From: Sinomonas atrocyanea
GTDB lineage: Bacteria; Actinomycetota; Actinomycetes; Actinomycetales; Micrococcaceae
Assembly (NCBI RefSeq): GCF_030811715.1
Contig: NZ_JAUSRH010000012.1
Location: 62,001-126,000 of the forward strand
Reading direction: 5' to 3'
DNA length: 64,000 bases
The position numbers were made by a program, and so were the translations under genes. Below, in pieces: positions 16,859-61,535 of the stretch. Each line of letters opens with the position of its first letter. Within the stretch, counting starts at the first letter, position 1. The notes beneath the pieces were generated by a model. That model was given only the letters and a program-made list of their open reading frames with translations, did not search any database and was not told the DNA's origin.

Positions 16859-17944
16859 ATGAGTGTCACCTCGGTTCCCCTGTCCATGCCCACGGTCCCG
16901 CGGCGGCGCCGCGCGCCTGAGGACGTGGCCGCCGCGGTTCCCGTCTCCGGCGAGAAGAAGGTCCTGCTCGCCGCCCCGCGGGGGTACTGCGCAGGGGTCG
17001 ACCGGGCCGTGATCGCCGTCGAGAAGGCGCTCGAGCACTACGGGGCGCCCGTGTACGTGCGCAAGCAGATCGTCCACAACCGGCACGTCGTCGAGACCCT
17101 CGAGGAGCGCGGCGCCGTCTTCGTCGAGGAGACCGACGAGGTCCCCGAGGGCGCCCTCGTAGTCTTCTCTGCGCACGGGGTGAGCCCCGCCGTCGTGCGC
17201 TCCGCCGAGGAGCGCGGGCTGCGGACCATCGATGCGACGTGCCCGCTCGTGACCAAGGTGCACCGGGAGGCCGTCCGCTTCGCCCGGGACGACTACGAGA
17301 TCCTGCTCATCGGCCACGAGGGCCATGAGGAGGTCGAGGGCACGTACGGCGAGGCCCCGGAGAACACCCAGGTGGTGAACTCGCCCGAGGAAGCCGACAC
17401 CATCCAGGTCAAGGACCCGGACAAGCTCATCTGGCTCTCGCAGACCACGCTCTCCGTCGACGAGACGATGGAGACCGTGCGCCGGCTGCGTGAGCGTTTC
17501 CCCAACCTCCAGGACCCGCCCAGCGACGACATCTGCTATGCGACCTCGAACCGCCAGGCGGCGATCAAGAAGATTGCCCCGCAGGCTGACCTCGTGATCG
17601 TGGTCGGATCGGCCAACTCGTCGAACTCGGTCAGGCTCATGGAAGTGGCCCTCGAGTACGGCGCGAAGGCGGCCTACCGGGTCGACTTCGCCAACGAGGT
17701 GGACGAGTCCTGGTTCGAGGGAGTCGAGACGATCGGCCTGACCTCCGGTGCTTCCGTCCCGGACGTGCTCGTGCAGGACGTCCTGCGGCTCGCCGCCGAG
17801 TACGGCTACGGCACCGTCGAGGAGGTCGTCACCGCGGAGGAGGACATCCTGTTCTCGCTCCCCAAGGAGCTCCGCGCCACCCTGCGCGATGCCGGCGATG
17901 CGAGCCGCGGCCTCGGCGGTCGAGGGCGACGCCCCCAGAGCTGA
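16859..17944 (+). CDS. ispH: 4-hydroxy-3-methylbut-2-enyl diphosphate reductase
   Basis: 361 residues. Last step of the MEP isoprenoid pathway, making IPP and DMAPP with a [4Fe-4S] cluster. The three cluster cysteines are C44 ([12 protein letters not shown]), C128 ([11 protein letters not shown]) and C226 ([11 protein letters not shown]). [13 protein letters not shown] and FSAHGVSP carry the substrate-binding histidines. An extra N-terminal leader of about 33 residues precedes the fold. The ATG at 16859 is seven bases after TAGCAT (16846-16851). Its stop directly abuts the first unit of a 21-bp repeat array. Confidence 0.95.
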
Positions 17945-17945
17945 C

Positions 17946-18008
17946 GCCGAGGTCACCCCGTGGGGCGCCGAGGTCACCCCGTGGGGCGTCGACGTCACCC
18001 CGTGGGGC
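17946..18008 (+). repeat. 21-bp tandem array, left arm (3 units)
   Basis: Three head-to-tail 21-bp units of the form GCCGAGGTCACCCCGTGGGGC start at 17946, 17967 and 17988, beginning two bases after the ispH stop. Differences are confined to a few positions. The reverse complement of this unit matches the units at 18187-18276, so the two arrays face each other. Confidence 0.85.
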
Positions 18009-18078
18009 GCTAAGGGCGGCAGGGGGAGTAGGTCCGCGGGTTCCGGCTCACCCACCGCTGGCGACGCCGACCCGTGAG

Positions 18079-18137
18079 AAGTGCCTCTTTCCACCAGGAG
18101 TGCCCGAAAGCGGCACTTGCCGACGAAAACGGCACTT
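18079..18137. repeat. 19-bp period inverted repeat, nested at the array centre
   Basis: AGTGCC occurs at 18080 and 18099, and its reverse complement GGCACT at 18112 and 18131, both pairs exactly 19 bp apart. Neighbouring bases (CGAAAG, CGAAAAC) also repeat. This forms a second, smaller mirror-image array inside the 21-bp one. Confidence 0.75.
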
Positions 18138-18186
18138 CCGCGGCCGATGACCTGTGACGTCGTCCCGGTCGGGGCGTCCAACACCC

Positions 18187-18276
18187 GACGTCGCGGTCCC
18201 GTGGGGTGACGTCGCGGTCCCAAGGCCCGACGTCGAGTTCCCACGGCGTGACGTCGCGGTCCCAAGGGGTGACGTC
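18187..18276 (+). repeat. 21-bp tandem array, right arm (5 units, inverted relative to the left arm)
   Basis: GACGTC recurs at 18187, 18208, 18229, 18250 and 18271, exactly 21 bp apart, inside units like GACGTCGCGGTCCCGTGGGGT. Looser copies occur at 18156 and 18294. The rest of the 466-bp spacer (18277-18410) holds only GC-rich inverted segments, probably a terminator for rmuC. No credible gene is present: frames through both arrays give only repeated heptapeptides. Confidence 0.85.
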
Positions 18277-18410
18277 GACGGCATGGTCCCCCTGACGTCA
18301 GGCTCAGGCCCCCGGCGACCCGGGCGCCCAGCCCGCGGCCGGGCGCCTCGGTACCCGCCAGAGGCAGGCGGGGCGCCTCGAACCCGCCCGGCTGAGTTCG
18401 CGGGCCGAGG

Positions 18411-19739
18411 TCAGGCCGAATGCATCCGTGAGCCGTCCTCGCCGTCCTCGAGGTCCCGCCCGGCGTCCCCACCGCCACCGCTCCCCGCCGGGACGCCTCC
18501 GAGCGTTCCCGGCAGCGCGGTGATCCCGTTGTCCTTCCACAGCTGCTCGTCGAGCAGTTCGCTTGCACTCAGGACGCGGGGTGTGGTCTCGACGGGCGGC
18601 AGCTCCGGCAAAGTCTCGGGGGAGCCGAGGTCGAGGGCGCTGATCCGGCGCGCGGTCGGGAGGACCCGCGACTCGAGCGCCCCGATGAAGGCGTTGTACC
18701 GTTCCACGGATCCCTTGAGGGAGGACCCGAGGCGGGCCACGTGGCCGCCCATCGTGCTCAGCCGCCCGTAGAGCTGCTGGGAGAGGTCGAACAGCTCGCG
18801 GGCGTTCTCGGTGAGCAGCTCCTGCCGCCAGCCGAAGGCGACACCCTTGAGGAGGGCCATGAGCGTTGCGGGGGACGCGAGCGCCACGTTGCGCCCGAAG
18901 GCGTAGTCGAGGAGGCCGGCGTCGGCCCGGAGGGCCTCGGCGAGGAAGGACTCTGCGGGAAGGAAGCAGACAACCAGTTCTGGACTGGACCCGACGGCCT
19001 CCCAGTACTTCTTGCTGCCCAGGGCGTCAACGTGCGCCCGCAGTGCCTTGGCGTGCTCGGCGAGGTGCCGGTCCCGCTGCGCGATGCCCGCGGGGCTCTG
19101 GTCCTGCGCATGCTCCTGGGCCTTGAGGTACGCCCCGAGCGGGACCTTGGAGTCGACGACGATCTGCTTGCCGCCCGGCAGCTGCACCACGAGGTCGGGC
19201 CTGACCGCCCCGCCGTCGCCCGAGGTCGAGACCTGTTCCGCGAAGTCCACGCGGTCGAGCATCCCCGCAGCCTCCACCACGCGGCGGAGCTGGATCTCGC
19301 CCCACGTGCCGCGGGAGGAGTTGTTCGCGAGGGCCGCAGTCAGGGCGTGCGCCGACTGCAGCAGCGCCGCGTCCGAGGCCCGCGCATCCTGCAGCTGCTG
19401 GGCGAGCTGGCCGAACTGCTCCACCCGGTCCCGCTCCAGCACGGCGACGGCGCGCTGGACGGCGCTGAGCTTCTCGGCCACCGGGGCAAGGGCATGGAGG
19501 ACGGTGTTCTCCTGCTCGTCGATCGAGGTCAGGGCGGCGTTCTGCCGCGCCAGGAGGTCCCGCTCCGCTCCGGCCGCGGCCAGCGCTGCCTCCGCCGACG
19601 CAAGGCGGGACTGCAGCGCGGGGAGGTCGCCGCCGTCGTGCGCGGCCTGCCGCCGCTGCCGGGCGGCCCCGGCCAGCGCCCCGAGCACGAAGGCGAGCAG
19701 CGCCACGAGCACCATCACGAGAATCTGCGTTCCGTCCAT
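18411..19739 (-). CDS. rmuC: DNA recombination protein RmuC
   Basis: 442 residues. One membrane helix at residues about 5-26, then a coiled-coil stretch (residues about 38-115) and the RmuC nuclease-like domain: RGTWGEIQLRRVVEAAGM, VRPDLVVQLPGGKQIVVDSKVPL, and VVCFLPAESFLAEAL. RmuC restrains inversion events at short inverted repeats in E. coli, which is notable beside the mirror-image arrays downstream. The start at 19739 has AACAGT six bases upstream and no Shine-Dalgarno site. The C-terminal 40 residues are Gly/Asp-rich and variable. Confidence 0.9.
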   Translation of the reverse strand: MDGTQILVMVLVALLAFVLGALAGAARQRRQAAHDGGDLPALQSRLASAEAALAAAGAERDLLARQNAALTSIDEQENTVLHALAPVAEKLSAVQRAVAVLERDRVEQFGQLAQQLQDARASDAALLQSAHALTAALANNSSRGTWGEIQLRRVVEAAGMLDRVDFAEQVSTSGDGGAVRPDLVVQLPGGKQIVVDSKVPLGAYLKAQEHAQDQSPAGIAQRDRHLAEHAKALRAHVDALGSKKYWEAVGSSPELVVCFLPAESFLAEALRADAGLLDYAFGRNVALASPATLMALLKGVAFGWRQELLTENARELFDLSQQLYGRLSTMGGHVARLGSSLKGSVERYNAFIGALESRVLPTARRISALDLGSPETLPELPPVETTPRVLSASELLDEQLWKDNGITALPGTLGGVPAGSGGGGDAGRDLEDGEDGSRMHSA

Positions 19740-33203: not shown

Positions 33204-35129
<1,926 letters not shown>

Positions 35130-35140
35130 CCCTCCACCCG

Positions 35141-35312
35141 TTTCGGGTACGCATCCCGTCGCCTTTTCGGCATTTCGGGTACGACGCCGGCCGGCGCCTT
35201 CCACGCGGAAGGTGCCGGCCGGCGTCGTTCGTGTACCCGGAACGGGAAAACCGCTACGAGATGCGTACCCGAAACGGGAAAACCGCGACGAGATGCGTAC
35301 CCGAAACGCAGA
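35141..35312. repeat. 32-bp mirror-image tandem array flanking a terminator
   Basis: GGGTAC occurs at 35145 and 35177, and its inverse GTACCC at 35233, 35265 and 35297; all neighbouring copies are exactly 32 bp apart. The right-hand units read CGAAACGGGAAAACCGCG-ACGAGATGCGTACC with few changes, and the left-hand unit aligns to their reverse complement. The arms face each other across the hairpin at 35182-35227. Confidence 0.85.
35182..35227. terminator. 21-bp stem terminator after typA
   Basis: Left arm 35182-35202 (starting CGACGCCGG) pairs with 35207-35227 across a 4-nt loop, with a single G-T wobble. It sits between convergent typA and arsR-type genes, at the centre of the 32-bp mirror-image array. 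Confidence 0.8.
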
Positions 35313-35359
35313 GGGGGCGGGGCGGGGGATGATGCGGGGATGGCCGGCGGGGCGCCGGG

Positions 35360-60485: not shown

Positions 60486-61535
60486 ATGTCCAACATGTTC
60501 GGTTCCGCCAAGCCCACTGACGAGGCCCGCGCGCTCCCGCAGGGCGAAACCGTCGGTTCCTACACCTCCTATCTGGATGCGCAGAAGGCGGTGGACTACC
60601 TCGCCGACCAGCAGTTCCCGGTCGAGCTCGTCGCCATCGTCGGCAACGAGCTCAAGCTCGTCGAGCGGGTGACGGGGCGCCTGTCCTACCCGCGGGTCGC
60701 CCTCAACGGCGCGCTCAGCGGCATGTGGTTCGGCCTCTTCGTGGGGGTGCTGCTCTCCTTCTTCACCCCGAACGGCAGCTACTTCTCGATCATCACGTCC
60801 GTGCTGATGGGCGCCGCGTTCTTCATGCTCTTCGGGATCGTGACCTATGCGATGCAGCGCGGCAAGCGCGACTTCACGTCCACGAGCCAGGTCATTGCGA
60901 GCAACTACGACGTCGTGGTGGGCCATGAGGTTGCCCACGAGGCGCGGCGGCTCCTCGCCCAGCTGCCCATGGGGCAGGGCATGGCCCACGGCGGCTGGGG
61001 CCAGACCGGCGGATACGGCCAAGGCGGCGGGTACGGCCAGGGCGGCGGGTACAACCAGGGCGGCTACGGCCAGCATGGGCAGGACTGGGGCCAGGGCGGC
61101 CACGGCCAGCAGGGGTACGGCCAGCAGGGGTACGGCCAGCAGGGACACGGCGACCAGGGGTACGGCCAGCAGTGGCAGCCCCCGCAGCAGGAGGAGCCGA
61201 AGCGCCCCACCGGCTGGACCGACCCGTACGGGGTGCACGCAGGCCAGACCGAGGGCCAGCAGGGGCAGCCCGAGGTCCAGCAGGCCCCGCAGCCGGCCCC
61301 CGAGCCCCGTCCGGGTTACCACGACCTGCCCGATGGCCGGCCGCAGTACGGCATCCGCGTCGAGCCGGAGCACGCCCAGCAGCACCAGGGCAGCGTCCCC
61401 GCCAACGACGCGGGGCAGCAGGAAGCCCGCGGTGAGCAGGAAGTCCACGAGGAGGCCCGGGGCGAGGATGCCGCCACGGAGCATCGCGGCGAGGGCCAGC
61501 CGAGGCACGACGACGACTCCCACCGGGGCGCGTAG
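60486..61535 (+). CDS. General stress protein with Gly/Gln/Tyr-rich tail
   Basis: 349 residues. Residues about 22-70 form a YflT/17M-like domain ([30 protein letters not shown]), followed by two membrane helices (about 79-98 and 103-122). From residue about 168 the protein becomes low-complexity: repeated YGQGG/YGQQG units, then Pro/Gln/Glu-rich to the C-terminus. ATG 60486 has AAGAAT six bases upstream (leaderless style). The tail is in frame and codon-consistent, with short DNA repeats as expected for such a region. Confidence 0.85.

Follow-up and report, generated by a model that had tools for sequence, protein, structure and literature searches.

The window, that is, the whole stretch of 64,000 nucleotides that was analysed, contains two opposed arms of 21-bp tandem units in the spacer between ispH and rmuC. 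The locus is composed of the following features:

16880..17944, + strand: ispH (LytB family; Pfam PF02401, E 4e-96; present in the ORF list and the gene calls)
17945..18010, + strand: left arm, three units of 21 bp with the consensus GCCGAGGTCACCCCGTGGGGC, in sense orientation directly after the ispH stop
18074..18142, no strand: inner conserved hairpin, a possible bidirectional terminator of ispH and rmuC (25-pair consensus structure, inverted repeats)
18187..18277, - strand: right arm, four to five inverted 21-bp units pointing at the left arm
18411..19739, - strand: rmuC, convergent to ispH (Pfam PF02646, E 4.2e-86)

Position 16880 is the start of the stretch used for ispH, and a codon-usage gene caller placed the start at 16925; the stop codon is TGA (17942-17944). 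The location between ispH and rmuC in a genome of the Micrococcaceae type, as given in the earlier note on this DNA, agrees with the Pfam matches (LYTB and RmuC) and with the relatives. By IspH, the closest named relative among the best 80 of 570 loci was Sinomonas cellulolyticus (94% identity), records of the own genome being possibly absent from this set.

TRF delimited the left arm to 17945-18010 (3.1 copies of 21 bp, 93% matches), in agreement with an independent repeat search, and the right arm to 18187-18277 (4.3 copies of 21 bp, 80% matches). In the right arm the hexamer GACGTC could be read from the sequence at 18187, 18208, 18229, 18250 and 18271. Three units rightward of the ispH stop and inverted units from 18187 at 21-bp spacing are thus what the earlier note had described. 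Together the two arms constitute an inverted repeat of 65 nt that is 75% complementary. The spelling of the units differs between them as judged by eye, and the idea that one arm is a recent copy of the other was rejected. The best lag-21 score in 17941-18300 was 40 of 42, whereas 500 dinucleotide shuffles gave a mean of 22.9 and a maximum of 27 (lags 12-40).

An inner inverted array with 19-bp spacing had also been proposed. Its motifs are present as described (AGTGCC at 18080 and 18099, GGCACT at 18112 and 18131), but the lag-19 score was 25, which falls within the range of the 500 dinucleotide shuffles, and the inner part is therefore unsupported as an array by itself; spacing too regular for chance applies to the outer lag and not to the inner one. 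The inner 19-bp part is better read as a conserved hairpin than as a second array. G005, G004 and G013 retain this hairpin in the corresponding spacer, and in the alignment of four genus genomes it comprises 25 pairs, five of which have changes on both sides. The proportion of paired cells in the alignment (90%) was reached by 4 of 500 shuffles, the five two-sided pairs by 12, the covariation score by 15 and the further pair types by 158. For four sequences, these values give the hairpin moderate support. The own-genome loci, 428,316 bases in all with small overlaps, contained no second copy of the exact pair AAGTGCC/GGCACTT. The half-site CGAAAACGGCACTTC, at up to two mismatches, gave six genome matches and one for the reversed control; two of the six lie at the ispH-rmuC locus and one each in the array loci L022 and L030, so that some relation of the inner hairpin to other array loci is conceivable.

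With regard to known classes, positions 17000-19500 gave no Rfam match at E values up to 1, and a known RNA family was rejected. The earlier note had named a decayed coding gene in relatives as a possible refutation. No such gene is recognisable by eye between the ispH stop and rmuC in the genus spacers inspected, and a decayed heptapeptide-repeat gene was rejected because, by eye, these spacers are non-coding and variable in length. The idea of seven-residue repeats was nevertheless apt in a way, as the 21-bp unit is translated elsewhere as in-frame heptapeptides.

Dispersal in the genome and the genus

Rather than the unique nested element implied earlier, the locus is one member of a dispersed family: the motif GACGTCACCCCGTGGG had 67 matches in the own genome at no more than one mismatch, compared with none for the reversed control, and a 19-base pattern had 72 matches at no more than three mismatches, compared with five reversed. 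On contig C12 as a whole, 21 bp was the commonest period, with seven lag-21 stretches (six under the threshold used for the 100-kb samples, which differs) and no more than two at each of the other lags between 8 and 60; the block-shuffled control had no lag-21 stretch. Unbiased 100-kb samples held four lag-21 stretches in G003, two in G014, six in G004 (one being a masked run of N), one in G013 and three in G011. No 21-bp array reached the threshold in the corresponding samples of G002 and G009, and the family is therefore sparse in part of the genus. The arrays are a real, genus-wide phenomenon. An assembly artefact, another possible refutation named in the earlier note, is unlikely because the single-contig genomes G003 and G004 hold arrays of the same kind, and a special link to rmuC is unsupported, since arrays lie next to or within many unrelated genes.

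By eye, no array follows ispH in six genomes of the genus (G001, G006, G007, G008, G009 and G012), and G005 and G013 have only one unit there. Outside the genus, a weak spacer repeat (of one period or another between 14 and 31) was present in 8 of 80 ispH loci of named relatives, and a single 100-kb sample from another genus (G027) contained one weak lag-21 stretch. The exact 14-mer GCCGAGGTCACCCC is also present in a different genus of the family, as a compact pair of inverted copies separated by 6 bp (G060:C3:85190-85223), possibly a single-unit ancestor or a chance terminator.

Several other repeats were observed. The window carries a tandem repeat of about 32 bp with GTACCCGAAACGGG at 35219-35325, between genes ending at 35129 (+) and 35360 (-), and the GTACCCGA core, spaced by 31-32 bp, also occurs in G009 and G011, with inverted arrays in G009. 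A 14-bp tandem repeat (GCAAAGAAGTGCTT) lies at 1696-1763 of the window between two co-directional called genes, and 15- and 18-bp repeats at 60985-61187 lie in a Q/G-rich reading frame and are probably ordinary low-complexity coding repeats. At about 7710-7850 of L196 (G014:C1, about 147710-147850), 22-bp inverted arrays with GGGGTCTCTGGC have the same architecture built from another unit.

Placement, orientation and predicted stems

The own-genome survey covered 29 stretches, nearly all of them picked by motif (the exceptions being the window and the rest of contig C12), with gene borders taken from the codon-usage gene caller. An arm was defined as at least two units, single-unit arms of this first family being left out. 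The 29 stretches held 49 tandem arms, of which 34 were intergenic and 15 lay in frame inside 12 called genes. Opposite adjacent arms within 1.5 kb faced inward in all 15 cases. In parts of ten other genus genomes we counted 14 inward pairs and one outward pair, many of them orthologous and so not independent; the outward pair lay between two inward ones. The 5' neighbour of the intergenic arms was the stop of a sense gene in 26 of 34 cases and the start of an antisense gene in the other eight. Sixteen of these arms were found no more than 20 bp after a sense stop and none that close to an antisense start, and in 30 of the 34 the 5' distance to a gene border was shorter than the 3' distance. 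At the window locus the flanking genes are convergent.

An arm is thus usually anchored, with its 5' end nearest to the end of a gene or the border of a domain, and extends from there into free space. Two arms anchored in this way at one locus therefore face inward and can pair with each other in a long stem. For spacers, anchoring of this kind accounts for the inward-facing arms; for single linkers it does so less well, which is a weakness of the explanation favoured below. Inward arms would also fit 3'-end extension, as expected if the repeats were added by a reverse transcriptase from a template (telomerase-like, or by a retron or DGR). We consider this extremely improbable: of the 15 genus genomes only G002 had an RVT_1 match, G000 having none, with the control search positive in 3 of 14 reference genomes, and without RVT_1 in G000 repeats derived by reverse transcription are refuted unless the enzyme lies outside RVT_1.

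A second family with 21-bp spacing, GACATGACCCCTCAACG, had 134 own-genome matches at up to three mismatches, compared with four reversed; one of its loci, with GGGACATGACCCCTCAACGCT, is at 6731-6849 of L138, which corresponds to about 30130-30250 of contig C12 and lies beyond the window. For comparison, 21 stretches were taken from the listed matches; there, 28 arms lay between convergent genes, nine between co-directional genes, one between divergent genes and three in called genes. Convergent spacers hence held 28 of 38 intergenic arms, compared with 26 of 122 gene intervals on C12, arms of the same spacer not being independent. Six pairs of this family were inward and seven outward (single units counted). 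As the second family has no fixed order, the inward order belongs to the first family and not to such stems generally.

In the RNA predicted for the ispH-rmuC locus, 62% of the left arm pairs with the right arm (z -4.3, 40 shuffles), and folding of the spacer on the two strands gave z values of -3.9 and -2.9. Six chosen paired loci had z values from -3.3 to -6.7 against 40 shuffles, with 43-83% of the left arm paired with the right. It should be kept in mind that inverted repeats form stems by construction, which lessens the weight of these values for the favoured explanation. No U-tract terminator was found in 17800-18500 or anywhere in the window's initial 20 kb, for which shuffles gave 2.9, so transcription there probably ends otherwise. 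An intrinsic terminator, in the sense of a GC-rich hairpin followed by a T-run, was rejected for the array locus, where none was found. In the relatives L036 and L040, which belong to other genera, hairpins of the ordinary kind followed by T-runs could be seen by eye at the same place. Arrays inside genes cannot be terminators, and position alone is therefore no proof of terminator function.

A Pfam family was found for 11 of the 12 array-bearing genes, the exception being L023. The hosts include dihydrolipoamide acyltransferase E2, a PabB-like chorismate-binding fusion, a PRTase/StiP protein, an HrpA-like helicase (with the array within DUF3418), a DsbD-like protein, MazG and a DEAD helicase; some N-terminal arrays counted as in-gene (e.g. 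in L129) may lie upstream of the true start. The unit corresponds to seven codons and is open in five of its six frames, as read by hand. In linker 1 of E2, the heptapeptides are of the EVTPSGA type in G014, G003 and G004, the AEVGSGD type in G002 and the AEMGARA type in G011, and in linker 2 they are of the GVTSAPQ, TPASADR and APISAAQ types, differing by species; the E2 linkers of G001, G006, G007 and G009 are unrelated. The unit number in linker 2 of the PabB-like protein is four for G000, six for G014, eight for G003 and about four for G004, and no run of at least three such units was seen in the other 11 genus genomes (all by eye). Since the unit is seven codons long, linkers are lengthened between enzyme domains in the acyltransferase E2 and the PabB-like protein, and genome noise is thereby coupled to protein architecture.

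Dialects, copy number and candidate origins

The pattern GCCGAGGTCACCCC occurred 34 times in G000, 50 times in G003, 105 in G004, 42 in G014, 12 in G005, 11 in G013 and 6 in G012. The other eight genus genomes had no more than two matches each, and 63 genomes from outside the genus had 0 to 4. GCCGAGRTCGGGTC was found in G002 (23), G008 (13) and G010 (13), with 0 to 3 matches in each of the 12 remaining genomes of the genus and no more than 2 elsewhere, and GCCGARRTGGGGTC in G011 (19) and G002 (6), with 0 to 1 in the remaining 13 and a maximum of 3 beyond the genus. For G001, G006, G007 and G009, all three dialect patterns added up to 0 to 2 matches. G002, with its different dialect, falls within the CACCCC clade in a tree of three proteins, where support is modest (0.67 and 0.40 at two nodes).

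The units were compared at three loci; of 45 arms, the 30 that had three units or more were used, and G003 was not entered. They differed by 4.28 mismatches between loci within a genome (36 comparisons) and by 7.02 at the same locus across genomes (145 comparisons), and in the dialect permutation test none of 5000 permutations was as extreme; an unfiltered version over 14 nt showed a weaker difference (3.43 versus 4.21 mismatches). We read these spellings as indicating concerted evolution of the dispersed sites. Repeats that share, and jointly change, their spelling genome-wide require some means of copying short stretches from one site to distant others. Copy number also varies: about 17 units were counted by eye in the ispH spacer of G014 and six to seven in that of G003, within flanks that are 97.9-99.8% identical. 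Because copy number is unequal in near-identical genomes, the process should be directly observable by resequencing.

The explanation that we favour, with slightly better than even confidence, is a dispersed 21-bp array family that would grow by slippage and be copied between loci, its stems and hairpin being putative terminators or 3'-end protectors. Local slippage would lengthen the arms, while units copied among loci by recombination or microhomology template switching would acquire a homogenised spelling. In spacers, the arms and inner hairpin would provide a stem at both transcript ends, and might act as a bidirectional terminator without a U-tract or protect the 3' ends. Inside genes the repeats would be tolerated, because 21 bp make seven codons and most unit frames are open. 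A further statement, to which we give slightly less than even credence, is that a species-specific 21-bp repeat is written into dispersed sites including in-frame linkers, and rewritten at many of them when the dialect changes, through a mechanism that employs neither a Y1 transposase nor an RVT_1 reverse transcriptase and leaves the arms inward; it would then represent a new kind of repeat, evolving in concert and building both linkers and gene-end hairpins.

The arrays could instead be selfish or neutral repeat DNA, spread through errors of replication and recombination and functionless, with gene ends and linkers merely tolerant. The in-frame arrays within 12 called genes, the different copy numbers in near-identical genomes, the near lack of dialect matches in G001, G006, G007 and G009, and the existence of orthologous linkers without arrays all agree with this. 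The strict inward order and the tight placement after stop codons would nevertheless need some polar mechanism, and a similar spelling is maintained genome-wide, so that we regard functionless repeats as possible but on the whole doubtful.

The unit might also be the site of a putative dedicated DNA- or RNA-binding protein, whose specificity the dialects would track. DNA-uptake-sequence dialects follow changes in protein specificity, and a spacing of 21 bp would bring the sites onto one helix face. The 21-bp period is common to several different unit sequences, G009, G011 and the window also have periods of 31-32 bp, close to three turns of the helix, and the dialects are genome-wide, as such a site would suggest. 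Coding linkers, however, are an odd place for regulation and 22-bp arrays are also present (G014), and we judge a binding site unlikely.

Comparison with known repeat systems

Bidirectional terminators at convergent genes are a known kind of element. The Sinomonas arrays resemble them in position and hairpin, but their stem has no U-tract and is made from tandem units that also occur in genes. A CRISPR array was rejected, as there are no unique spacers between the 21-bp units, which run head-to-tail; the earlier note was right to set the locus apart both from CRISPR and from classic REP/BIME, the units being non-palindromic. No published description of such arrays was found among the matches listed in the open-access literature that was searched. 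The array family may be a previously undescribed variant of dispersed prokaryotic repeats, with a function that we infer from sequence.

Prokaryotic satellites likewise form scattered tandem-repeat families, for which transposition of non-coding satellites has been proposed; neither inward-facing pairs nor dialects are described in the accessible part of that source (PMC6749651). The TAACTGA direct repeats of Beggiatoaceae are also short and genome-wide, and repeats inside reading frames are a topic of the same paper, but they lie mostly just 5' of start codons, whereas the Sinomonas arrays follow stop codons (PMC4679880). The heptamer repeats of Xanthomonas and Nostoc come close in placement, being dispersed short tandem arrays with the nearest ORF on the 5' side, near sense-strand stops and occasionally in inverted pairs. 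They are 7-bp, G-rich, proposed to form G-quadruplexes and under-represented in genes, in contrast to the Sinomonas units, which are 21 bp long, have dialects and are found in genes in 15 of 49 sampled arms (PMC4692102).

REP and BIME elements and Rickettsia palindromic elements are dispersed, near the 3' ends of convergent and co-directional genes, paired in opposite orientations and in some cases in frame (PMC3733652). REPs also occur no more than 20 bp from a 3' end, in the spacers of convergent genes and, in frame, within genes (PMC3733652), a placement similar to that of our arrays, 16 of 34 intergenic arms being as close to a sense stop. It is, however, very improbable that the arrays are REP/BIME proper, moved by a RAYT-type Y1 transposase. 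Four single 21-nt units did not fold clearly better than shuffles (z +0.99, +0.27, +0.85 and -0.85), and none is a palindrome of 20-40 bp as in REP/BIME. The RAYT (Y1) transposase domain PF01797 (Y1_Tnp) was absent from all 15 genus genomes, the control search being positive in 5 of 14 reference genomes. In the same source, CGTC REPs are without a dedicated transposase, and the transposase of GTAG REPs is thought to copy repeats between sites (PMC3733652). The 21-bp arrays differ from the elements described there in being tandem with a fixed period and non-palindromic, in having species dialects and an inward order, and in that no Y1 was found in the genus. They would be best read as REP-like dispersed repeats with non-palindromic units and without a Y1 transposase, homogenised genome-wide and forming terminator-like stems at gene ends.
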